Positions 737 to 12,828 of a stretch of 64,000 bases of DNA are shown in pieces. The position numbers were made by a program, and so were the translations under genes. Origin of the DNA: an uncultured Pseudomonadota bacterium (GTDB taxonomy: Bacteria > Pseudomonadota > Alphaproteobacteria > Rs-D84); contig CASFOK010000001.1 in NCBI GenBank assembly GCA_949296475.1, positions 84,535 through 148,534 of the forward strand. The letters are read 5' to 3'. Position 1 is the stretch's first letter. Each line of letters starts with the position of its first letter. Under the pieces are notes generated by a model. That model was not told the origin of the DNA. It worked only from the letters and a program-made list of their open reading frames with translations, and ran no database searches.

Positions 737-781
737 TGGTGCCAGTTGTCGGACTTGAACCAACGACCCTCTGATTACAAA
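737..781 (-). pseudogene. 3' half of the original tRNA-Thr gene
   Basis: Read on the minus strand this is the anticodon loop with TGT, 3' anticodon stem (TCAGA), variable loop, T arm, 3' acceptor strand (AACTGGC), discriminator A and encoded CCA. The 5' half is missing here. The matching 5' half lies at 11449-11489. Joined at the shared 10-bp core, the two halves form a tRNA with perfect acceptor (GCCAGTT/AACTGGC) and anticodon (TCTGA/TCAGA) stems. It was therefore split by insertion of the element. Confidence 0.85.
772..781. other. Left attachment core (attL side)
   Basis: TGATTACAAA is the crossover core. To its left the sequence is tRNA-Thr; to its right (CATTGACATTGG) it no longer matches a tRNA. 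Confidence 0.75.
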
Positions 782-988
782 CATTGACATTGGCTCAATT
801 TGGTGCCTTGATTAATCCCTGTTTTGTCGCGTTTTTATGCGTTATTTCCGTCATTTTTTGATGTGTTCTGTCCATTTCTGGGACATTTTTTACAATACTT
901 TGCAATAAATTTATACATAATTTGTGTGTATGGATTTTGTATCCAAACAGTCAGAATTCCGAGCATTTTTATATGTTGATTTTAGACA

Positions 989-1009
989 ACTGGACCAAAT
1001 TTGGACCAT
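989..1009 (+). repeat. Element-end repeat, left copy
   Basis: This 21-bp site contains TGGACCA twice as a direct repeat with AAT between. Its exact reverse complement is at 11315-11335 near the other end of the element. Placement suggests integrase or excisionase arm sites (inference). Confidence 0.6.
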
Positions 1010-1093
1010 TTTCAATATTGTAAAAGAGTATCATATTGATTTTATTGTGTTTTTTATATACCGTCCCACAGATTGTGAATCTGTTGTATGTTT

Positions 1094-1122
1094 TTGACAT
1101 TTGCTGTAAGTTGTTGTATTAT
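1094..1122 (+). promoter_or_regulatory. Integrase promoter
   Basis: TTGACA (1094-1099) and TATTAT (1117-1122) have a 17-bp spacer. The integrase ATG follows 23 bases later. The stretch 782-1093 before it holds no gene that I can support. Confidence 0.7.
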
Positions 1123-1145
1123 CTCTGAAAAATAGGATTCAATAG

Positions 1146-2210
1146 ATGGCAACTTTTGAAAAACGCAGGACAAAAGACGGTTTCAAGTATCGGGCGCGTG
1201 TTCGGGTAGAGGGCAACCTTATCCGCACAGCCACATTTTCCAGTAAAACATTGGCGCGTGAATGGGCAATTAAAACAGAAAACGAATTGCGTGACCAAAA
1301 GCATATCCCCGATTTGACTGCATATAATCGCACTGTCGGCGAATTGTTTGACGAATATGAAACGCATTTGGCAGAATGTGAATTGCGGTCTGCGCGTAAT
1401 ATAAAGTTTCAACTGGAAGAATGGCGTAAATTTATTGAGGGTGTAAAACTGCATTCATTGACATCCGCCATTATAACACACGCATTAAACCAAATTGCAA
1501 AAATAAAGTATGGTGGTCGGACCAAAAGTCCTGCAACATTAAATCGGTATCTGGCGGCACTCAGTTGCGCGTTATCCTATGGCGTTAAATCATTGGGGTG
1601 GATTGATATTAATCCGGTGTCGCGTGTTGAACACAAACGCGAAAACAGGGGGCGTGTTCGTTATTTAAGTGATATTGAACGCGAACGGTTGCTGGATGCA
1701 GCCAAAGAATCGCGTAATAAATCGCTTTACACAATTATTATTTTGGCAATTTCAACAGGTGCGCGGCGTATGGAACTGTTATCACTAAAATGGTCTGATA
1801 TTAACTTGGACACAGGTTGGGCAGTGTTGGAACATACAAAAAACGGTGAAATGCGTGGGGTGCCTATAACGGGGCCTGCGCTGGGGTTAATGCGTAATTT
1901 GTATAACAACCGCAAATCAGATGTTTGGGTGTTTCCAAATGAAAACAATTCTGGTCCATGCGACATAAAACGCAGTTGGAACACTGCGGTCAAGCGGGCA
2001 GGATTGTCAGATTTTCGTTTTCATGATTTGCGGCATACTTGTGCCAGTTATTTGGCGATGAATGGCGCAACGCCCAATGAAATCGCGGCGGTATTGGGGC
2101 ATAAAACATTGTCTATGGTGCGGCGATATGCACACCTGTCCGATGCACATAAAAGCAGTGTCGTCGCCAGCATGAACGCAAAAATATTCGGGGGTAAAAT
2201 AAAGGATTAA
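1146..2210 (+). CDS. int: Tyrosine-type integrase of the element
   Basis: This 354-residue site-specific recombinase would cut and join DNA at the attachment cores through a 3'-phosphotyrosine. The N-terminal half (about 1-165) is the arm- and core-binding region. The catalytic domain shows Arg207 (STGARRMEL), His293 and Arg296 (FHDLRH), His319 (LGHK) and Tyr328 (RRYAHL), the full R-H-R-H-Y set. It is full length for the family. The gene sits at the left end, reads inward and has a strong promoter. The shared core lies in the tRNA anticodon loop, a site class used by a subset of tyrosine integrases. Only 2 bases separate it from the next gene. Confidence 0.95.
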   Translation: MATFEKRRTKDGFKYRARVRVEGNLIRTATFSSKTLAREWAIKTENELRDQKHIPDLTAYNRTVGELFDEYETHLAECELRSARNIKFQLEEWRKFIEGVKLHSLTSAIITHALNQIAKIKYGGRTKSPATLNRYLAALSCALSYGVKSLGWIDINPVSRVEHKRENRGRVRYLSDIERERLLDAAKESRNKSLYTIIILAISTGARRMELLSLKWSDINLDTGWAVLEHTKNGEMRGVPITGPALGLMRNLYNNRKSDVWVFPNENNSGPCDIKRSWNTAVKRAGLSDFRFHDLRHTCASYLAMNGATPNEIAAVLGHKTLSMVRRYAHLSDAHKSSVVASMNAKIFGGKIKD

Positions 2211-2212
2211 TC

Positions 2213-2911
2213 ATGGAGCGCAGAAAAATAACAATTAAAAACTATTCAGATATTATCAAGTATTTTCCGGTGGTTTCCGGTGTTGGAATAAATGAAATTG
2301 TGATGACGGCTTATCGTATAATATTTCCGACAAATCCAATAACGAGTCCGTATTTGATATCTTTAACATGGGACCAACGCGATACAATACAAAATCATAT
2401 TGATAATATTTTTAACCTTATTGAAAATACACCAATTTTACCGAACGATGACATCAATAAACTGTCATTAAAAAATATGGAAGTCGCGGATTTGCCGACC
2501 AGGATTCAAATGGCGATTTTAACAATATTGACTGAAAGAGATTCAGCGCTGACGGGAAAGTATGGGCGTATTATTCCCGGAAAATTTGGAAAGAAAAAAG
2601 AAACAAATTTGGACAAAATGCGTAAAAAAGCGGCATCTGTTCGACAAAATGTTATTTATCCTGCACCACCACAGGAAATATTAACCCAGCGCAGACGTTG
2701 GTTTAACAATCGATATGAGGGCACCCCAGAAGTTTTTTATGCCGCGGCCATTTTTTATATTCTTGACTATATGTACATAAATCCAGATATTGATCAGGAG
2801 ACCGTGGGGGTGTTGATGGGGGCGATAGTGCAATTGAACAATTTAATGACAGAAAATACCACAAAAATAAAGGCGGCAAAAGCGTCCATAAAATCCCGCA
2901 AAAGAAATTAA
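2213..2911 (+). CDS. Hypothetical protein co-transcribed with integrase
   Basis: This 232-residue protein is not recognised. It has no signal peptide or clear membrane segment. It is mixed alpha/beta with a basic, Lys-rich middle (about 125-140, GKFGKKKETN) and a basic C-terminal tail ending KSRKRN. The ATG is 2 bases after the integrase stop, so the two genes are almost certainly one transcript. A role in integration, excision or element maintenance is possible from position alone. A palindromic terminator at 3009-3040 follows. Confidence 0.6.
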   Translation: MERRKITIKNYSDIIKYFPVVSGVGINEIVMTAYRIIFPTNPITSPYLISLTWDQRDTIQNHIDNIFNLIENTPILPNDDINKLSLKNMEVADLPTRIQMAILTILTERDSALTGKYGRIIPGKFGKKKETNLDKMRKKAASVRQNVIYPAPPQEILTQRRRWFNNRYEGTPEVFYAAAIFYILDYMYINPDIDQETVGVLMGAIVQLNNLMTENTTKIKAAKASIKSRKRN

Positions 2912-3008
2912 AATTATAAAAAAAATCGCAACAAACTGATTCGGGCATATGTGATTTTAAAAAATAAAAACACGCCTTGTATCCCACACTCACATTGGGT
3001 TTTAGCAA

Positions 3009-3040
3009 AAATGCAAGCAATTGCTTGCATTTGTTTTTTT
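3009..3040 (+). terminator. Palindromic terminator after the int operon
   Basis: A perfect 24-bp palindrome (AAATGCAAGCAA, 3009-3020, and its complement 3021-3032) is followed by G and seven T. Confidence 0.75.
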
Positions 3041-3115
3041 ATGTATTTCACCGCATATTCCTTAACAGATAACCGCACGGTGCGGAAATCAAAATTAAAA
3101 TATAGGAGTTTTCAA

Positions 3116-3355
3116 ATGGATATAAATATTCATGAAACCCCACGGTACTTAACCGTGCCGCAATTCGCGAAAAAGCACCCTGCGTTCCCAGTCGGGTCGC
3201 TGCGGGATTTAATCTTTCACGCCCCGTTTAACGGGCTGAACGATATGGAAGTTATCCATCGGGTCGGTGCAAAGATTTTGATTGATGAAATCAAGTTCTT
3301 TGAATGGGTCGCAACCAATCCCAGTTCAACCGGTAGAATCAAAGGAGGTAAATAA
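3116..3355 (+). CDS. Small excisionase/AlpA-like DNA-binding protein
   Basis: This 79-residue protein reads as a winged-helix or MerR-like fold of the excisionase type. YLTVPQFAKKHPAFPVGSLR resembles the helix-turn-helix opening (tyrosine-leucine start, then a recognition helix), and KILIDEIKFFEWV resembles the C-terminal strand and helix of such proteins. The ATG at 3116 follows TAGGAG; a longer in-frame extension would run through the terminator and is unlikely. The stop overlaps the next start as TAATG. In elements like this the protein usually directs excision or represses the integrase; here that is inference from size and position. Confidence 0.55.
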   Translation: MDINIHETPRYLTVPQFAKKHPAFPVGSLRDLIFHAPFNGLNDMEVIHRVGAKILIDEIKFFEWVATNPSSTGRIKGGK

Positions 3356-4791
3356 TGGTAGAGCAAAAAGAAAAGGGAACTGTGGCGGCGGCATCCACTA
3401 ATTCCCCAAATGTTCAAGGTTATTTTAACCGTCCTGAAACTAAAAATCAACCAGATTCCGGCACACCCATGCTGGATGCCTGGGATGAGCCCGTGAACGG
3501 GCTGGAATTGGTCCAGAAATTGCGTGCTCTATACGAACGATATTTGGTTTTGCCGGATGGGGCATCAATTGTTTTGCCGTTCTGGGCGTTGCATACATAT
3601 GCTGTTAATGCATTTGATTATTCGCCACGTCTGTGTATTAAATCTGCGGCCCCACAATGTGGTAAAACACAACTGTTGCAATTGTTGGAATTGACCACAT
3701 ATAGTCCTGTAAATATATCCAGCATAACCGCGTCCGGAATATTTCGCACTATCGCGGCTTGGCATCCAACGCTGTTAATTGATGAGGCGGATACCTATAT
3801 TAACGGAAATAATGAAATCCGTGGAATTGTGAATGCAGGATATAAGCGTGGCGGCAAAGTATTGCGTACCATTGCAACTAAAAATGATTATGCCACCAAG
3901 ACATTTGATTGTTATGGTGCAATGGCAATTGCAGGCATTGGAAATCGGGATGCAACAATAATGGATCGCAGTATCACCATTGTTATGCGGCGTGCTGGTC
4001 CGCATGACAGATGCGTTGAAAAGTTGCGCGAGCGTCTGGTAAAGCCACAGACCACACAATTACAAAGCATGTGTATGCGGTATATGATGAACAATGTTAA
4101 TGCGATATCCGAAATATTCCCAGATGTGCCAAATTTTCTGAATGGTCGCAAGGCAGATATTTGGGAACCTTTATTCGCAATCGCGCACCATATATCGCCC
4201 GATTTGGTATCTGAATTAGCAGATGCTGCGGCGCGTTTATGTCCCATGTCGGATGATGTTGAAACCCGACCGATTCAATTATTGGCGGATATTAGTCAGG
4301 TTTTTGAAAACACGGGTGCAGATTTCTTGGCAACAGATGAATTGTTAAGGCACTTGTACCAATTTGAAACCCGTCCATGGGCAGATAAAGAATATGGGAA
4401 AACTGTGTTAACCAGTATAACCTTGGCTGGTATGCTGCGGGATTTTGATATCAGACCCCAACAGATCCGCATCGGCAACAAAATAAAACGCGGATATGCA
4501 CGCGCGGCATTTACAGATGCCTTTGAACGCTATGTACCCCAAATTGTATGTGACCCCGTGACAACACAGGACGCGTCTAGCGTGGCGTGTAACGGGGTCA
4601 CGGATTCAGCAGATGATGCATCCGAAACCGCACCAGTGCAAACCAATAATCCTGATACGCAGGATGCCAAAGGCAACAATGACGACACACCTGATGTCGC
4701 CTTTAAACGGGCAGAACAATTTTTTGCCGAAAATAGTGTGACGGAACTATCAGACGATGACATTTCGGATTTGCCGGATATTCCATATTGA
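3355..4791 (+). CDS. DUF3631-type P-loop ATPase of mobile elements
   Basis: This 478-residue protein has a Walker A-like loop at residues 97-105 (SAAPQCGKT), a Walker B at about 140-146 (LLIDEAD), and a sensor-like segment at about 185-195. It resembles the DUF3631 domain found in phage and plasmid proteins, often next to primase modules and thought to be helicase-like. The C-terminal 90 residues are acidic and low in complexity. No primase domain is visible. It is translationally coupled to the upstream DNA-binding protein (TAATG). A likely role is replication or maintenance of the excised element. A 10-bp inverted repeat (4550-4559 / 4592-4601) lies inside the gene at the domain-tail boundary. 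Confidence 0.65.
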   Translation: MVEQKEKGTVAAASTNSPNVQGYFNRPETKNQPDSGTPMLDAWDEPVNGLELVQKLRALYERYLVLPDGASIVLPFWALHTYAVNAFDYSPRLCIKSAAPQCGKTQLLQLLELTTYSPVNISSITASGIFRTIAAWHPTLLIDEADTYINGNNEIRGIVNAGYKRGGKVLRTIATKNDYATKTFDCYGAMAIAGIGNRDATIMDRSITIVMRRAGPHDRCVEKLRERLVKPQTTQLQSMCMRYMMNNVNAISEIFPDVPNFLNGRKADIWEPLFAIAHHISPDLVSELADAAARLCPMSDDVETRPIQLLADISQVFENTGADFLATDELLRHLYQFETRPWADKEYGKTVLTSITLAGMLRDFDIRPQQIRIGNKIKRGYARAAFTDAFERYVPQIVCDPVTTQDASSVACNGVTDSADDASETAPVQTNNPDTQDAKGNNDDTPDVAFKRAEQFFAENSVTELSDDDISDLPDIPY

Positions 4792-5242
4792 TTTTTGTAT
4801 TGGTCGGCTGTGCCAGTTATCCGGTGCAGCCGATGTTTTGGCATTATCCCCCACCCATATTTGTCCGCCTGATCCCAACACCTGTATATATTGTGATATA
4901 AACCACCACGTGACGGGCGTATATTAAACATATACCCCCCCACCCGTATCCTCGGGCATTTGATTTTTGGAAAATTTGGTGTAAAATGTATGTTGAATTC
5001 AATGGGAATTGGATTCGGGGCCGTCATAAGCCTAGTTTTTATCCGGTGCAGTTTGCATCGTTTCCGTATAGGTGCGGATTGCACCGTTATTATGCCCTGA
5101 CTGTTATGGTCGGGGGGCTGTTGTTATAAAACAGGTGCGCAACCAAAAGCAACAGGAATCCAGTGATAAAAACTGATTTTATGAACTCCCCGACCGCCAT
5201 TATCCCGTTGGCGGTTTTTTGTTTGCAAAAACGGGGGTAATG
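4792..5242. other. Non-coding stretch with several hairpins between ATPase gene and mod
   Basis: About 450 bases without a supportable gene. It holds a 7-bp inverted repeat TCGGCTG (4804-4810) / CAGCCGA (4827-4833) and a second one CGGTGCA (5044-5050) / TGCACCG (5080-5086). GGTGCA-type words recur. It ends with a terminator just before mod. An origin or operator region for the element is possible but not shown. Confidence 0.4.
5193..5220 (+). terminator. Terminator or attenuator immediately upstream of mod
   Basis: The stem ACCGCC (5193-5198) / GGCGGT (5210-5215) is followed by six T and lies only 22 bases before the mod start. It either ends the upstream transcript or attenuates entry into the R-M operon. 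Confidence 0.6.
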
Positions 5243-7168
5243 ATGCCGAAGTCATTGATAGACATGTTGCCGGAAATCGTGGCACAGGGTAAAAAAGAAG
5301 TGGAACGTATTTTGGCACGTGCGCAGTCAGATAATAAAATGATGCTGCAAACGAATGAATATGTTTTGCCGGCACGTGATGAAAGCGGTTTGTTTCGCGG
5401 TGAAATTCGTGCATGTTGCCCACCGGATAACACGAATTCATGCGATACAGACGGTTGGTTTAACCGTTTAATTCATGGTGATAACCTGTTTGCAATGCAG
5501 GCATTGTTAAGCGGTGACCCTGCCACTGGATTGCCAAGTATGCGTGGCAAAATTGATTTAATCTATATTGACCCGCCATTTGATTCCAAGGCAGATTACA
5601 GAACAAAAATAAACTTGCCAAATGGTGACATTGAACAAAAACCAACGGTGTTGGAGCAGTTTGCGTATTCCGATACATGGGCGGATGGCACGGTATCATA
5701 TTTGAAAATGCTGTATCCACGCCTGTGTTTAATGCGTGAATTATTGTCCGACCAAGGTTCAATTTATGTGCATTGCGATTGGCACGCCGGCCATTATGTA
5801 AAAGTAATAATGGATGATATTTTTGGTAAGAATAATTTTGTGAATGAGATTGTTTGGTCGTACAGGAGTGGGGGCGCCTCACGAAATGGGGCATTACCAA
5901 GAAAACATGACACAATTCTATTTTATTGCAAACAAACAGCTTCTTTTTCGTTAAACAGTCAAATTGAACGTCAATACTTAGAAAAACCTTTTATGGGGTC
6001 AAAACAAGATGAAAAAGGCAGGTATTATGTGGATACTATATTAAGAGACGTGTTTGAAGGTGCTCCATGGATAGTTAAAGACACTGGCATTGAACAATAT
6101 AATATGCGTCCAGTATTAAATTTATCATCAGAACGCGTTGGGTATGCAACACAAAAACCAGAGGGGTTGGCACAAATGCTTATAGAAATAGCATCCAATG
6201 AAAACTCCATTGTGGCGGATTTCTTTGGCGGCTCGGGTACCACGGCGGCGGTGGCGGAAAAATTGGGGCGGCGATGGATAACATCCGACATTGGCAAACC
6301 ATCTGTTATGATTATGCGCAAACGGTTGATTGATATTCCCGATTGCAAACCATTCCTGTACCATTCCATTGGTGATTATTCGCGCGAGGCATTTTTATCC
6401 GACCGGCAATACAAACGTGTGTCCGATTTGGCACGTGTGGTAATGCGTTTATACGGTGCATTGCCATTTGATAATGCCGATGCACCAACGAATGTTGGTT
6501 ATATGCGGGACACCAGAACACTGGTAATTGTTGACAGTCCAAACAAGATAACAAATGCCGGCACGATAAAGCGTGCAATGGAACTGCGTGAATCTTTTAT
6601 GGGGGGGTGGAAAAAGGTTATTGTTTTGGGGTGGAATTTTTCATTTGATATTGGCGATAAATTATCAAAATTACCCAAAAATGAAATAGAAGTTTTGGTT
6701 ATTCCACCAGATTTGCTGGATATGCTGCGCAAAAAGGATTATCGCGATTGGGTAAATAATCAAAAAATACGTTTTACATCGCTGCAATATTTGACTTTGA
6801 AACAGCCACGTGTTTTATCAGCCAACCAAGATGGCAAAGAAAAACTGGTTATCGAATTGGATAATTATGTTTTACTGTCACCAGATTGTTTGCCATTGGA
6901 TGACGACAGTAAAGCAGTGGTTCAAAATATTATGGCAGAAAAGCCATTGGATTTAATTGAATATTGGTCAATTGATCCGGATTATGACGGGCATACATTT
7001 CGCAGTGTATGGCAAGATTATCGTGAAAACACCGCCAACGACAGCGATGAATTGCGTGTGACACATTCCGCCGAATTGATTGTGGATAAGGTTCCCGGCA
7101 AACGCACAATTTGCGTCAAGGCGGTTGATGTGTTCGGCTTTGAATCCCAAGCAATTATAGAGGTGTAG
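5243..7168 (+). CDS. mod: Type III restriction-modification DNA methyltransferase (Mod)
   Basis: This 641-residue enzyme would transfer a methyl group from S-adenosylmethionine to adenine within a short asymmetric site, and gives the R-M complex its specificity. Motif IV appears as DPPF at about residues 110-113 (LIYIDPPF), where DPPY is usual. Motif I follows later as FFGGSGTT at about 327-334. This IV-before-I order is the beta class used by Type III Mod. The segment between them should hold the target-recognition domain. ATGs at 5240 and 5243 are both possible; GGGGGT spacing favours 5243. The gene starts the operon mod, 7174-7791, res. Confidence 0.92.
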
Positions 7169-7173
7169 GTATT

Positions 7174-7791
7174 ATGTGTGAAATTATTACACCTGATAAT
7201 ATAAATATTGTTTGTAATGTATCAATGGCGTTTTTTACTGGGGTGGCCGCATATGTGGCATTTAAATGGAAATCCTCAACATTAACCAAAGCAAAAATGG
7301 ATGTGGCTGGTGAAGTTTTAGCTGGGGTATTAGAGATAGAAGATTTGTTCAAATTTATTTGTTCGCCAAGTAGAAACAATACAGAGCGAAAAAGTGCATT
7401 AAAATATTATCAGGAACGTGCTTTGCCGATAAATACAAAACGCATTGATATATTAATCCCGTTATTTCGTATGGAACAAAATAAAGATAAATTTAAAATC
7501 TTTTTTAATTTGCGGAACAAGGTTGCGATTTATTGGGGAGAAGAATCTATAAAGTCGTTTGATGCTATTATGAAAATATGTCAACGCATTCAGCAGGCTT
7601 GTGACACATTGTATAACCAAACAGAAAACACGCCCGTACAGCAATGTCAAGAATGCGAACAAATTATTTATGGTTATGAAAACAGTTCGGTAATGATGGA
7701 GTTAAATTATACATTTGAAACTATTCGTAGAAATATGAACGCCGTTCTGGGGAAACGCACAAAATGGCAACAAAAAAGGAAAATAACATGA
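7174..7791 (+). CDS. Unknown membrane-linked protein inserted between mod and res
   Basis: This 205-residue protein is not recognised. Residues about 11-30 form a hydrophobic segment (NIVCNVSMAFFTGVAAYVAF), followed by a helical, mostly polar region with a CQECEQ motif near 159. It begins 5 bases after mod and its TGA overlaps the res ATG (ATGA at 7788), so translation is coupled to res. Type III systems normally consist of mod and res alone. The placement suggests an accessory or regulatory role, for example membrane tethering or control of Res synthesis. This is inference only. Confidence 0.65.
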   Translation: MCEIITPDNINIVCNVSMAFFTGVAAYVAFKWKSSTLTKAKMDVAGEVLAGVLEIEDLFKFICSPSRNNTERKSALKYYQERALPINTKRIDILIPLFRMEQNKDKFKIFFNLRNKVAIYWGEESIKSFDAIMKICQRIQQACDTLYNQTENTPVQQCQECEQIIYGYENSSVMMELNYTFETIRRNMNAVLGKRTKWQQKRKIT

Positions 7792-10727
7792 TTGGCACAC
7801 GTGATATTCCATTAAAATTTGCGGCTGAATTATCGTCCATTGTGAACGCAGAATGGGAATCTGGGCGGTTTTTGAACGCGGTATCACCGATAACGGCGGA
7901 TTTGTTGCGATATTGGTTTGAACCTGTGTTTTGTGATGTTCGTGAAAGAAATTTTCATGACGGACAACGCCAGGCAATTTTGAACACAATATATGTTCAT
8001 GAAGTTCTGAAATCAAAATCTGTATCCGATATGTATTCGGCAATCGGACAAATTGTCGCAACACCATTTGTTGATAACGATTTTTTAGGGATAACGTGTG
8101 CCGATAAATATAATCTGGCCAAATATTGTATAAAAATGGCGACCGGCACCGGAAAAACATGGGTGTTGAATGCATTGATGGTGTGGCAATATTTGAACTC
8201 AAAATATATGCCGACAACTGCGGATGTCAAATATACTAAAAATTTTTTATTGGTTGCGCCTGGGTTAATTGTATATGAACGCTTGTTGGATGCCTTTTTG
8301 GGCAAAGAAACAGAACCTGGGGTCAGAAATTTTGAAACATCGGATTTAAAAAAGAATGAAGATTTATTCCTGCCCGAAAAATATCGTCAGGACATTTATT
8401 CTTTTGTACAAAATTCCGTGGCAGATAAATCAGAAATCGGACATAAAACAACTGGCGATGGTTTGATTGCGATAACCAATTGGCATGCGTTGGTTGATTC
8501 AGATGATGAAAATGAAGATAATGAAGATGATTTACATATAAACGGGGTTGATTTATCGGACACAAAAAATATTGTGAATGATTTATTGCCATTGACACCA
8601 GGGGTTTCGGCGGGTAATTCATTAGATGCATTGGATGACAGATTTTTACGTGGTGGAATACTTGAATATTTATCTGGATTGCCCGATTTATGTGTATTCA
8701 ATGATGAAGCGCACCATATTCATGAAAACAAAACCTATGGTGTAATACACGAAGTTGAATGGCAGAAATCTTTAAACGTTCTATCAAATGCATTAAAAAG
8801 TAATTTTATACAGATTGATTTCTCGGCAACGCCATACGATACCAGCGGCAGCAAGAAAAATAAGGTAAAACATTATTTTCCGCATATTGTTGTTAATTTT
8901 GAATTATCTGTTGCCATGCGTACAGGGCTTGTTAAAACATTTGTTTTGGATGAACGCAAAGAAATCGCCAGTTTGGCAAATGCAGATATAGAATTTCGTT
9001 CTGTGCGCAACAGCAGCAATAAAGTAATTGGCCTGTCTGATGGCCAGCGATTGATGCTGCGAGCTGGATTGTCGCGATTAAAAATTTTAGAAGAAGATTT
9101 TGTAAAACATGATCCAACAAAACATCCAAAAATGATGGTTATATGTGAAGATACAAATGTATCACCATTTGTATGTGAGTTTCTACAATCCGAAGGTTTG
9201 GCACCCGATGATATTATGCAAATAGATTCAAATAAAAAGGGTGAATTAAAAACGGCTGATTGGAACGCATTAAAGCAACGTTTGTTCAATCTGGACAGCC
9301 AAATACAACCCAAGGTTGTAGTCAGCGTTCTTATGTTGCGTGAGGGATTTGATGTAAACAATATTTGCGTAATTGTTCCGTTGCGTTCTACCCAGGAACC
9401 CATCTTGTTGGAACAGGTTTTGGGACGAGGTCTGCGTTTAATGTGGCGTGGCCGTGATTATGATGCTATTAAAGCGGACAACAGACATAATATATATGAC
9501 CTGAAACGAGAACCGTTAAATTATCTTGATACTTTATTTGTCGTGGAACATCCTGCATTTAAAGATTTTTATGAAGATTTGGATAAAACTTTGGTTGTTT
9601 CTGAAACAAAAGACAGACCAACCGATGCCAGTTCTGTTGGGGATATGATAACTGTGGGATTAAAAAATAATTATGCAGATTATGACATGTTTTGGCCACA
9701 AATTATCAAGGAACGCGAAGAAACTCTCAATGGTTCGATCATTTCTGTGGATAATATGCAGCCTTTGTCTGGGTGGCGTCTGGAACAATTAAAGAAAATG
9801 GTGCCACACGATAATGCAGAACGCTTTGTCGGCACAGAAATGCAAGTAAAAACCCAGTTTGGCGAATACAAGGTTCGCGGCGATTTATTTAATGCAAAAT
9901 CATATAATGAATATTTGCAAAAAATGCTGCGGGCGATTACATCTAATTTTGCAAAAGTTGCATCAAACGGACACAGAACAGAAATGCCACTGATGCAAAT
10001 AGACCAAAATTTGTTGATATCTGCAATAGACAAATTTGTTCGTACGAAATTATTCGGTCAACCTTTTGATCCATTACAGGATGGAAATTGGCGTGTATTA
10101 TTATTATCAAATACAGAAATAATAAAACACACAATGACAGAATTATCAAAGGCAATATATGAAATGCATAATAATATTGATGTGCATGATGCCATTATTG
10201 AAAAACGTTATTTTTCCGAAATTAAACAATTAATTGGGCGCGAAAATTATGCGTTGGATATAAAGAAATCTATATATGAAAAAACTTTTTATCCATCAAA
10301 CAAAGGCGGATTGGAACATGATTTCTTGCTGGCCTGTGATGCAGATGCCCAGGTTGAACGAATTATAAAAATTAACGAAAACAAGCATTTGTTTGCAAGA
10401 TTCAGATATTTACGTTCTGATGGAATGTTGGCCACGTATTATCCAGATTTTATATTGAAAATTGGAAATAATATTTATGTTGTTGAAACCAAAGGCAACA
10501 ACATGGCACAAAATCCAGATGTAAAAAGTAAAGAAATTGGTGCAATGGACTGGGTATCAAAGATTAATGAATTGACACCAAACAACAGGATGGATTCCAC
10601 ATGGGCATATTCTTTGTTAACTGATGAAATGTTTTATAATTGGCGCGAAAAAAATGCTGGTATAAAAGAAATATTAGATTTTTGCCGATTGACACGTGGG
10701 CGTGCCACGGGGGCATTGTTTGAATGA
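7788..10727 (+). CDS. res: Type III restriction enzyme (Res), helicase-nuclease
   Basis: This 979-residue protein is the ATP-dependent endonuclease partner of Mod. Motifs seen are Walker A ATGTGKT at about 119-124, DEAH at about 306-309, SATPYD (motif III), and motif VI-like LEQVLGRGLRL. A C-terminal PD-(D/E)XK nuclease core is visible as YYPDF then VVETKG, at about residues 885-905. The length is typical for Res. The ATG at 7788 overlaps the preceding stop and has AAGGA upstream; an earlier ATG at 7764 has a weaker site. The gene appears intact, so the system should be functional. Confidence 0.93.
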   Translation: MIGTRDIPLKFAAELSSIVNAEWESGRFLNAVSPITADLLRYWFEPVFCDVRERNFHDGQRQAILNTIYVHEVLKSKSVSDMYSAIGQIVATPFVDNDFLGITCADKYNLAKYCIKMATGTGKTWVLNALMVWQYLNSKYMPTTADVKYTKNFLLVAPGLIVYERLLDAFLGKETEPGVRNFETSDLKKNEDLFLPEKYRQDIYSFVQNSVADKSEIGHKTTGDGLIAITNWHALVDSDDENEDNEDDLHINGVDLSDTKNIVNDLLPLTPGVSAGNSLDALDDRFLRGGILEYLSGLPDLCVFNDEAHHIHENKTYGVIHEVEWQKSLNVLSNALKSNFIQIDFSATPYDTSGSKKNKVKHYFPHIVVNFELSVAMRTGLVKTFVLDERKEIASLANADIEFRSVRNSSNKVIGLSDGQRLMLRAGLSRLKILEEDFVKHDPTKHPKMMVICEDTNVSPFVCEFLQSEGLAPDDIMQIDSNKKGELKTADWNALKQRLFNLDSQIQPKVVVSVLMLREGFDVNNICVIVPLRSTQEPILLEQVLGRGLRLMWRGRDYDAIKADNRHNIYDLKREPLNYLDTLFVVEHPAFKDFYEDLDKTLVVSETKDRPTDASSVGDMITVGLKNNYADYDMFWPQIIKEREETLNGSIISVDNMQPLSGWRLEQLKKMVPHDNAERFVGTEMQVKTQFGEYKVRGDLFNAKSYNEYLQKMLRAITSNFAKVASNGHRTEMPLMQIDQNLLISAIDKFVRTKLFGQPFDPLQDGNWRVLLLSNTEIIKHTMTELSKAIYEMHNNIDVHDAIIEKRYFSEIKQLIGRENYALDIKKSIYEKTFYPSNKGGLEHDFLLACDADAQVERIIKINENKHLFARFRYLRSDGMLATYYPDFILKIGNNIYVVETKGNNMAQNPDVKSKEIGAMDWVSKINELTPNNRMDSTWAYSLLTDEMFYNWREKNAGIKEILDFCRLTRGRATGALFE

Positions 10728-11060
10728 TTGCATTATAATTTTTTTCGACCAGTTTATAAATTACGACAAATGGCCGACAACGCGTTTTTGCTGTTTTATG
10801 GTATGACGGTGGCATAAAATCATTTTTGTTTGACGTCGGCCGCGACAATGCGACTGTCGCGGTCATTGTTATTTGCCCCATCGTATCCAATTTACCCGTG
10901 ACAGTGTGACAGGTGTGCCGATGGTTAAAAAATCTATGGGGCGTACCCTATACCCCCCCCTATGGTTGTCGTGTTTGATTTGCGGCACCAGTAAAAAGAA
11001 TGCTTTTTTATATGTAAAAATAATCAATTTTTATCGTGGTATTTCCAAAATATGAAAAAT
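10728..11060. other. Non-coding right flank of the R-M operon
   Basis: About 330 bases with no supportable gene. It holds an 8-bp hairpin CCGCGACA (10840-10847) / TGTCGCGG (10855-10862) without a T-run, and a long C-tract near 10954. It could contain element maintenance signals; nothing specific is seen. Confidence 0.35.
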
Positions 11061-11084
11061 AAAAAAATCCGCGAAGCCCGCGGA
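11061..11084 (-). terminator. Terminator of the element's tRNA-Thr
   Basis: The stem TCCGCG (11068-11073) / CGCGGA (11079-11084) is flanked by seven A, which is a T-run on the minus strand, five bases past the tRNA CCA end. Confidence 0.75.
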
Positions 11085-11089
11085 AATCC

Positions 11090-11165
11090 TGGTGCCAGTT
11101 GTCGGATTTGAACCAACGACCTACTGATTACAAATCAGCCGCTCTACCAACTGAGCTAAACTGGC
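11090..11165 (-). tRNA. tRNA-Thr (anticodon TGT), intact copy carried by the element
   Basis: A full cloverleaf is visible on the minus strand: acceptor GCCAGTT/AACTGGC, D arm, anticodon stem GCTGA/TCAGT around TTTGTAA, a T arm with GGTTCAAATCC, discriminator A and encoded CCA. It lies inside the element, 284 bases from the right core, and differs at several positions from the split chromosomal copy. It would restore tRNA-Thr(TGT) function lost through the insertion. Confidence 0.92.
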
Positions 11166-11232
11166 GATGCCCAAATTATACCTATTCTGGGTTGTAAATC
11201 AAGTATAATTTTTAAACATAAAATATTTTTTA

Positions 11233-11252
11233 TTGGACCAAAAATGGACCAC
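11233..11252 (+). repeat. Element-end repeat, degenerate copy
   Basis: TTGGACC and TGGACCA are separated by AAAA, a variant of the 21-bp repeat found at both ends of the element. Confidence 0.5.
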
Positions 11253-11314
11253 AAAAAAATTTTTTATTTGATGTTCGTAATGCAATTTTTAACGGGCTGT
11301 TTAGGGTGTAATTT

Positions 11315-11335
11315 ATGGTCCAAATTTGGTCCAGT
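11315..11335 (-). repeat. Element-end repeat, right copy (inverted)
   Basis: This is the exact reverse complement of 989-1009. The pair is placed about 210 bp from the left core and about 115 bp from the right core. Confidence 0.6.
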
Positions 11336-11448
11336 GATTTCAAAAAACTGCCATATTTTGCAAAAATGTTGTAATGATTAGGGTAATAAAAAATCGCAGA
11401 AAACTGCGAAAAATTGTTGTGCATTGCCGTGCATAATAGCCGTACCGA

Positions 11449-11458
11449 TGATTACAAA
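11449..11458. other. Right attachment core (attR side)
   Basis: TGATTACAAA again; to its right the sequence becomes the 5' half of tRNA-Thr, to its left (GCCGTACCGA) it is element sequence. Confidence 0.75.
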
Positions 11459-11489
11459 TCAGATGCTCTACCAGCTGAGCTAAACTGGC
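11449..11489 (-). pseudogene. 5' half of the original tRNA-Thr gene
   Basis: On the minus strand this is the 5' acceptor strand GCCAGTT, D arm with AGCTGGTAGAGC, 5' anticodon stem TCTGA and the loop with TGT. It stops matching a tRNA directly after the core. Its anticodon stem pairs perfectly with the TCAGA of the fragment at 737-781, but only poorly with the bases now beside it. Confidence 0.85.
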
Positions 11490-11577
11490 AATGTGCTTTA
11501 CTATACATTGTAAAAATTGTAATTTCAAGCCCAAATTTTATAAAATGCTTGCTTTTGTAAAATAAGTGTTAAAAATT

Positions 11578-12828
11578 ATGTGTATGAAAAAAATACCAGA
11601 ACTTTTGGCGCCAGCTGGTACGTTGGACGCTTTTAAAACAGCCATACTTTATGGCGCAGATGCTATTTATGCGGGATTGCCCGGATTTTCTATGCGCGCG
11701 CGCGCAAAAATTACAACCGAAGAAGTTAAACAAGGTATAGAACTTGCGCATGCTGCAGGAAAGAAGGTATACCTTGCTTTTAATCTTTTTGCGCATGACA
11801 GAGATTTCATCAATATGCCGCGCGTCAGTGAAATCATTAATTATCTAAAGCCTGATGCGTTGATTATATCTGATCCAGGTGTTTTAATGTGGGTTCGTGA
11901 AAATCATCCTGATATGCCGATACATATTTCTACGCAGACAAATATTTGTTCTGCTGCCGGGGTGAAGTTTTGGCAGAAGGCGGGCGCAAAATTGTGCGTG
12001 CTTGCGCGCGAGGTTTCGCACGAAGAATTTAAAAGCATACGCAAACAGTGCCCAGACATAGGTTTGGAAATCTTTATACATGGCGCAATGTGCATGAGTT
12101 ATTCTGGACGTTGTTTGTTATCTAATTTTATTACGGGGCGTCCTGCAAATCGTGGGGCATGTGCGCAATTGTGTCGCTGGAAGTATGATGTTATCTTGCG
12201 TGAACGCGAATCTGGCGTTGAAATGCCTTTGGAAGAAGACGAACGCGGGGCATATATTATGAACTCAAAAGATTTATGCTTGATGCCGCGGTTGCGTGAA
12301 GTCTTGGAATCACAGCCTGATTCGTTAAAGATAGAAGGCAGAAATCGCAGTGAATATTATGTGGGCAGCGTTGTTCATGCTTATCGTGCCGCAATAGACG
12401 CTTATGCGCGCGACCCAGAAAATTTTGATTCGGCACCATTTATGAAAAATTTAGAAAAGTTAGAAACGCGCGGTTATACAACGGCATTTTTTGACGGCGT
12501 TCTTGGGGCAGATGCGCATAATTATGAAACAACGCGCTCTACGTCCGAGTTCCATGCGGCAGGTGTTATAACCAGTGTAGATGATAAAAGTATAATTTTG
12601 GAACTGCGTAACGAAATAAAGCAGGGCGATGAAATAAACTTTATATTGCCTGGTATTATGGATAAGTGTTCCGTCGTTTTACCGAAGATAATCAATGCAA
12701 AGAACGGTGAAGTGTTGCACAAAATGTCTGCCGGACAAAAGAATAGTTTAATTATTCCGCGCGATTGGTTGGGCGATAAATATCAAGACAAGTTTGTGCC
12801 ATATGTTTTGGCATATAAACATAAATAA
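11578..12828 (+). CDS. trhP: U32 family peptidase, TrhP/YegQ-like
   Basis: This 416-residue protein matches the U32 'collagenase-like' family: it opens with PELLAPAGTLDAFKTAI and contains the family signature EIFIHGAMCMSYSGRCLLSNF followed by RGACAQLC with its conserved cysteines. YegQ/TrhP members act with prephenate-dependent chemistry in 5-hydroxyuridine formation at tRNA position 34 in E. coli and B. subtilis, and bind an iron-sulfur cluster. It is slightly shorter than E. coli YegQ. Two starts (11578, 11584) are possible and neither has a strong ribosome site. A terminator follows, so it is a single-gene unit. Confidence 0.82.
   Translation: MCMKKIPELLAPAGTLDAFKTAILYGADAIYAGLPGFSMRARAKITTEEVKQGIELAHAAGKKVYLAFNLFAHDRDFINMPRVSEIINYLKPDALIISDPGVLMWVRENHPDMPIHISTQTNICSAAGVKFWQKAGAKLCVLAREVSHEEFKSIRKQCPDIGLEIFIHGAMCMSYSGRCLLSNFITGRPANRGACAQLCRWKYDVILRERESGVEMPLEEDERGAYIMNSKDLCLMPRLREVLESQPDSLKIEGRNRSEYYVGSVVHAYRAAIDAYARDPENFDSAPFMKNLEKLETRGYTTAFFDGVLGADAHNYETTRSTSEFHAAGVITSVDDKSIILELRNEIKQGDEINFILPGIMDKCSVVLPKIINAKNGEVLHKMSAGQKNSLIIPRDWLGDKYQDKFVPYVLAYKHK

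Follow-up and report, generated by a model that had tools for sequence, protein, structure and literature searches.

How does a bacterial genome come to hold a threonine transfer RNA (tRNA) gene, tRNA-Thr(TGT), in two halves, on either side of an insert that carries a whole gene of the same specificity? The question is raised by a 64-kb stretch of contig 1 (positions 84535-148534) of an alphaproteobacterial genome of 882 kb that is 97.7% complete; this whole stretch is called the window below. We conclude with high confidence that an integrative island has split the sole host tRNA-Thr(TGT) gene and supplies a substitute for it. The island comprises 10,677 bp, with one copy of its attachment core counted, and is inserted in the anticodon loop of the host gene. 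Its junctions, the substitute gene and the gene that marks the site are as follows, in window positions.

737..781, minus strand: 3' half of the broken host tRNA-Thr(TGT), tRNA positions 32-76, including the core at 772-781
772..781, no strand: attachment core TGATTACAAA at the integrase-proximal junction, placed where the flank alignments to the empty site overlap exactly
782..11458, no strand: the island, defined by its absence at the empty site L083
11090..11165, minus strand: cargo tRNA-Thr(TGT), the sole intact one in the genome (ARAGORN; Rfam RF00005, 75.2 bits)
11449..11458, no strand: attachment core TGATTACAAA at the cargo-tRNA-side junction, defined by the exact overlap of the flank alignments
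11449..11489, minus strand: 5' half of the broken host tRNA-Thr(TGT), tRNA positions 1-41, 100% identical to the intact gene in relatives
11566..12828, plus strand: peptidase U32 gene, a conserved neighbor of tRNA-Thr(TGT) that marks the site (Pfam, 9.4e-83)

The genome that is closest by its U32 peptidase (G175, 95% protein identity) has an empty site at locus L083. Alignment with the window gives 93.6% identity over 5.3 kb on the left and 89.8% over 2.0 kb on the right; what both alignments have in common is exactly the 10-bp core, and the flanks meet at 781 and 11449, not at 11090. The core covers tRNA positions 32-41 and is common to both halves. Joined, the halves give a 76-nt tRNA that matches, 76/76, the unbroken gene found at this locus in five relatives (L083-L087), and this identity, together with synteny, rules out a chance resemblance of the halves. 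The 3' half, which forms the chromosomal side of the integrase-proximal junction, is 100% identical to positions 32-76 of the relatives' intact gene, and its flank is continuous with the empty site. The internal tRNA differs from the uninterrupted gene of the relatives at six positions, on both sides of the core. A tRNA-restoring island rebuilds its target at one junction; here half genes lie at both, and ARAGORN and Rfam, run on this region, matched the internal tRNA alone and called no tRNA at either junction. The coordinates that a first-pass annotation had assigned to the halves, the core and the internal tRNA proved correct to the base. It had expected relatives without the element to carry one unbroken tRNA-Thr with stems TCTGA/TCAGA, exactly as found, and had considered that empty sites might hold the internal tRNA instead; the closest empty site holds the joined version. 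The U32 peptidase gene adjoins tRNA-Thr(TGT) in most relatives of the genus. Among species of the window's genus (L033-L063), the two are separated by a spacer of about 0.1 to 3 kb, a variation suggestive of repeated insertion next to tRNA-Thr(TGT).

What, then, serves the host in place of its broken gene? All 43 tRNA genes that the tRNA model found in the genome were located and typed, and a single one is a Thr(TGT), the cargo copy. Genes for Thr(CGT) and Thr(GGT) lie elsewhere in the genome, and no second TGT tRNA was found across it, which answers a question that the first pass had raised. By standard decoding rules, ACA codons are read by the UGU anticodon only, and from this we infer that the cargo gene is essential. 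The transcription signals predicted around the cargo gene and the broken 5' half are these.

11068..11084, minus strand: intrinsic terminator of the cargo tRNA, a 7-pair stem followed by a T run
11175..11202, minus strand: promoter-like site of the cargo tRNA, TTGATT-16-TATAAT, from a consensus scan (10/12 matches)
11394..11409, minus strand: island-encoded terminator just past the broken 5' half, a 6-pair stem followed by a T run
11500..11528, minus strand: promoter-like site of the original host tRNA, TTGAAA-17-TATAGT, retained; its -10 region is also present at the empty site L083

The -10 box of the cargo tRNA ends 10 nt upstream of the tRNA. Because the host promoter of the broken half is retained, that half would be transcribed and then stopped, with the terminator at 11394..11409 predicted to halt transcription from the old promoter. 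The closest match to the cargo tRNA, two bases apart, is the tRNA-Thr(TGT) of a different species in the genus (L088), and the cargo therefore looks to have been captured within the genus. Its anticodon stem is GCTGA/TCAGT. Native tRNA-Thr(TGT) genes of the genus (L033-L063) fall into two anticodon-stem types, TCTGA/TCAGA and GCTGA/TCAGT.

Does the same arrangement recur elsewhere? A search for the integrase in 201 genomes of the order found a full-family relative at E<1e-40 in 20 of them, and intact and half tRNAs were mapped around each of these 20 integrases. Nine belong to islands that disrupt one tRNA gene and bring another, complete one: those of the window's genome (G000) and G172 at Thr-TGT; G099, G026, G145, and G023 at Thr-CGT; G178 and G234 at Ser-GCT; and G045, which belongs to another family of the order, at Met-CAT. 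At least seven are restoring, with the displaced half present (G032 at Thr-TGT, G139 and G019 at Asn, G033 and G134 at Gln, G087 at Arg, and G035 at Ser-TGA), and four were left unclassed, mostly owing to contig ends (G066, G161, G044, and G223). Three further tRNA-replacing islands lie outside the order, in L216 (an alphaproteobacterium with a complete genome, Thr-TGT), L178 (Comamonas suwonensis EJ-4, Thr-CGT), and L148 (Ser-TGA); in the scan of named genomes, most relatives had an intact tRNA beside the integrase, the restoring type. The distal half lies on a second contig in G023, G178, and G234, where it was found with the cargo tRNA (G023 and G234) or alone (G178). The 12 cases are not all independent, since the G099 and G026 islands are near-identical. 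The cargo tRNA stands on the integrase side in L216 and L148, which indicates that the arrangement arose in more than one way. In a viral contig collection, the integrases were only about 40% identical over their full length, and none of the 26 examined belonged to a tRNA-replacing element.

In every one of the 12 tRNA-replacing cases, the isoacceptor of the cargo is that of the broken gene. The integrases of G172 and G145 are 81% identical, yet one targets TGT and the other CGT, with a cargo matching each. The G172 cargo equals its broken gene base for base, and in G000, G099, G145, G045, and L216 the two differ by 2 to 11 bases. The G172 case defeats, as a general rule, the idea that an altered anticodon stem shields the cargo from its own integrase. 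That a full copy compensates for the broken host gene, as the first pass had proposed, is supported because the cargo is the genome's only tRNA-Thr(TGT) and because the isoacceptor matches in 12/12 cases. The tRNA might instead be carried for another purpose, such as codon supply or resistance to anticodon nucleases, as has been proposed for phage-borne tRNAs (PMC10865867), and complement the host only incidentally. We regard this as very improbable given the complete isoacceptor match, which extends to co-switching of target and cargo between close relatives, and given that no other intact copy of the cargo isoacceptor was found in the window genome or in the six tRNA-replacing relatives searched (G172, G099, G026, G145, G178, and G045).

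The integrase nearest to that of the window, in G032 (74% identity), uses the same gene, with the same orientation, yet restores it. The G032 island carries a tRNA 3' half in its attachment site, and a segment 76-192 bp downstream of its intact tRNA matches the P' arm of the window island. The DNA upstream of that intact tRNA matches the host promoters of relatives, and the island is therefore classed as restoring; on the same ground, a first impression that it was tRNA-replacing was dropped. With such a sister in the same gene, and with restoration the commoner outcome in the integrase family, one might read the insert in the window as a classical restoring insertion, in which the internal tRNA would be the rebuilt host gene, the element would end at 11090, and the outer fragments would be other scars. 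The empty site refutes this: in the nearest relatives it matches the joined gene at every base, the internal tRNA departs from that gene at six positions, and the flanks do not join at 11090; we give this reading even less credence than an unrelated purpose of the cargo. Least credible of all is that a working tRNA is still assembled from the halves, for example by an intron-like or trans-splicing route, for although both halves are intact and the host promoter persists, no intron family or other RNA element was found in Rfam, a terminator lies within about 40 bp past the 5' half, the insert is a 10.7-kb integrase-bearing island, and bacteria are not known to have a tRNA splicing endonuclease.

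Some points weigh against our conclusion that the island splits the host gene and replaces it. The sample comprises one genome per species, so that presence or absence within a species is not visible. Expression and aminoacylation of the cargo tRNA and excision of the island are predictions. Several of the relatives are fragmented metagenome assemblies, and the halves therefore lie on different contigs in G023, G178, G234, L178, and L148.

How do replacement and restoration relate within the integrase family? An unrooted tree of 89 integrases requires at least five changes between the two, in whichever direction, and the grouping of all replacers as one clade is rejected (approximately unbiased [AU] test, p=0.0019); five replacers in the tree (L065, L104, L107, L148, and L178) rest on halves in different contigs. 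We consider it fairly probable that one integrase family switches repeatedly between rebuilding its target and breaking and supplying it, that the cargo tRNA follows the target, and that non-phage defense islands take custody of an essential host gene in this way, the host allele being replaced by a transferable one.

The proposed sequence of events begins with the tyrosine integrase, which would recombine a short core in the island's attachment site (attP) with the single tRNA-Thr(TGT) gene of the host, at its anticodon loop. The 7-bp anticodon loop would be the overlap, and the anticodon stem would provide the inverted core-binding arms. The gene and attP have only 10 bp in common, and integration therefore cuts the gene into two useless halves. 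What lets the island persist in its host is a complete tRNA-Thr(TGT), equipped with a promoter and a terminator of its own, that it carries directly inside the P' arm. The cargo tRNA would then read ACA codons, and the island terminator would end the orphaned half-transcript. Candidate arm sites for the integrase are found toward both ends of the island.

991..1008, no strand: arm-like 18-bp repeat TGGACCAAATTTGGACCA (P arm), putative integrase arm site
11234..11251, no strand: arm-like repeat (P' arm), with a homologous segment in the sister island of G032
11316..11333, no strand: arm-like repeat (P' arm), second copy, likewise with a homologous segment in the sister island of G032

The 18-bp motif TGGNCCAAANNTGGNCCA has matches in the window solely at 991, 11234, and 11316, that is, in both terminal arms, with 0.47 window matches expected by chance, and these repeats are probably integrase arm sites. 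Excision would fuse the two halves and regenerate the host gene, and the circular junction left after it would read GCCGTACCGA-TGATTACAAA-CATTGACATT. The first-pass annotation had expected the element to be hard to lose once the host depends on its tRNA. The sequence does not show this: both halves are still perfect, so precise excision should rejoin them into a working gene, and the island is thus not obviously hard to lose. The island would become irreplaceable only through imprecise loss or decayed halves, and dependence on it irreversible only through decayed halves or failure of the integrase.

Is there precedent for such an element? The principle is not unprecedented, as tRNA-dependent lysogeny has been demonstrated genetically in mycobacteriophages that have a 10-bp core, do not reconstruct the gene, and need a tRNA of the same isotype for lysogeny (PMC10865867). 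The island shares with these phages (Fionnbharth, cluster L, and Gaia) a tyrosine integrase, a core of about 10 bp in the anticodon loop, a single-copy tRNA target, the lack of reconstruction at attL or attR, and a carried tRNA of the same isotype (PMC10865867). Of the features by which tRNA-dependent lysogeny is recognized, a tRNA-targeting tyrosine integrase, a short core without a functional tRNA at attL or attR, a matching carried tRNA, and a host with no other copy are present; the carried tRNA may also be required for stable integration, but the element does not class as a temperate phage. Unlike the mycobacteriophages, the island is a 10.7-kb element that lacks virion genes and resides in an alphaproteobacterial host, its integrase is 31% identical to the best-ranked phage records, its cargo tRNA adjoins an attachment arm, and one integrase family covers at least five isoacceptors. 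In Sinorhizobium meliloti, prophages similar to phage vB_MloP_Lo5R7ANS inactivate tRNA-Leu(UAG) and bring a tRNA of the same kind (PMC11476347). Those too are alphaproteobacterial elements that break a tRNA and bring a replacement, but they are prophages, reported from two strains and for one isoacceptor, without a systematic comparison to restoring relatives (PMC11476347). Classical restoring islands of the Islander type (PMC4383910) likewise have a tyrosine integrase and a tRNA target, and many belong to the same integrase family; in them, attP contains the displaced half and the gene is rebuilt, whereas the window island leaves it broken. Phage satellites (such as P4 and phage-inducible chromosomal islands [PICI]) combine an integrase, a regulator, and a primase with helper-dependent packaging. 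They resemble the island in size, integrase, putative helicase/primase-like gene (DUF3631 in the island), and defense payload, but no packaging or capsid-interference gene was recognized in the island, and its membership is no more than a possibility.

According to the phage authors, it is unclear how tRNA-replacing and tRNA-restoring integration are related in evolution, and how far the phenomenon extends beyond actinobacteriophages should be studied (PMC10865867). The occurrence of both kinds side by side in one integrase family, including a sister pair in the same gene, makes the question directly testable. We consider it well supported that the non-phage, defense-type islands, the repeated switching, and the co-switching of target and cargo are new, relative to the open-license papers with which we compared them; an earlier non-phage report is conceivable. 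The principle is thereby extended to non-phage islands with defense genes, including one in a named Comamonas strain, and a route appears by which an essential single-copy tRNA gene can move onto a mobile element. For annotators, half tRNA genes together with an "extra" tRNA mark the ends of an island and its survival device, and island finders based on restoration would be expected to miss such islands.

The predicted genes of the island are listed below.

1146..2210, plus strand: tyrosine integrase, 354 aa (Pfam Phage_integrase, 1.3e-33; PHROG integrase, 2e-70)
2213..2911, plus strand: open reading frame of 232 aa without a family assignment (no Pfam, PHROG, or PADLOC match)
2951..3355, plus strand: small open reading frame, conserved next to the integrase in almost every related island
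3355..4791, plus strand: DUF3631 protein (Pfam PF12307, 3.8e-36)
5219..7168, plus strand: type III restriction-modification methyltransferase, Mod (PADLOC MTase_III, 1.8e-81, nearly the full model)
7174..7791, plus strand: open reading frame of 205 aa between mod and res, with no family match (Pfam, PHROG, or PADLOC)
7764..10727, plus strand: type III restriction enzyme, Res (Pfam ResIII, 1.1e-12; PADLOC REase_III, 6e-20)

With neighboring Mod and Res, the predicted payload is a type III restriction-modification system. The small open reading frame at 2951..3355 gave tblastn matches at 18 of 19 related integrase loci of the order and no family match, and its product may be DNA binding or excisionase-like; the DUF3631 protein may be helicase/primase-like. 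A search of the island for virion protein families (Pfam, PHROG, and PADLOC) gave only one stray match, of 20 bits, to "head closure" within Res. Even the phage integrases that ranked best share just 31% identity with that of the window, and the island does not class as a temperate phage. Among the other tRNA-replacing islands, that of G172 encodes an AAA_13/ABC-type ATPase, that of G145 a Bro-N protein, that of G099 a SocA/Panacea antitoxin-like protein, and that of G045 a type I methylase-specificity fusion with a GmrSD-like nuclease, and no virion proteins were found among the tested proteins of these four. Judged by their predicted proteins, the tRNA-replacing islands are of a defense or regulation type and are not recognizable phages. 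In the Thr-TGT island of G172 (L064:9260-11389), a 710-aa protein matching Pfam AAA_13 lies beside the cargo tRNA; this family includes the anticodon nuclease PrrC.

Further tRNA fragments were seen during the survey. Two separate broken tRNA-Asn(GTT) 5' halves occur in G161, on contigs C44 (L348:5541-5991) and C68 (L349:2058-2098); one of them has an intact inverted tRNA-Asn 338 bp away and, like the 5' half in the window, a terminator-like sequence after it. These halves probably mark a further tRNA-replacing island, for Asn, with no integrase assigned to it. An attP-like junction is present on contig C42 of the same genome (L103, near 6325), where non-tRNA sequence takes the place of the 5' half in front of an Asn 3' half that adjoins the integrase. 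This junction may represent an excised or tandem form; C42 as a whole was rejected as an excised circle, since the contig ends do not overlap. In the distant relatives L206 and L212, the integrase side has a Thr(CGT) 3' half, with an intact Thr(CGT) at a distance of about 10 kb, a reverse arrangement like that of G032. At L176:9626-9884, a 56-nt 5' fragment of tRNA-Gln(CTG) without any mismatch to the intact gene stands beside an integrase, about 130 bp upstream of that gene. Isolated tRNA-Thr(TGT)-like 3' halves, with no family integrase assigned, occur at G099:C11:121977-122021, G018:C2:14604-14648, and G003:C1:98-142, and are possibly scars or ends of other elements.

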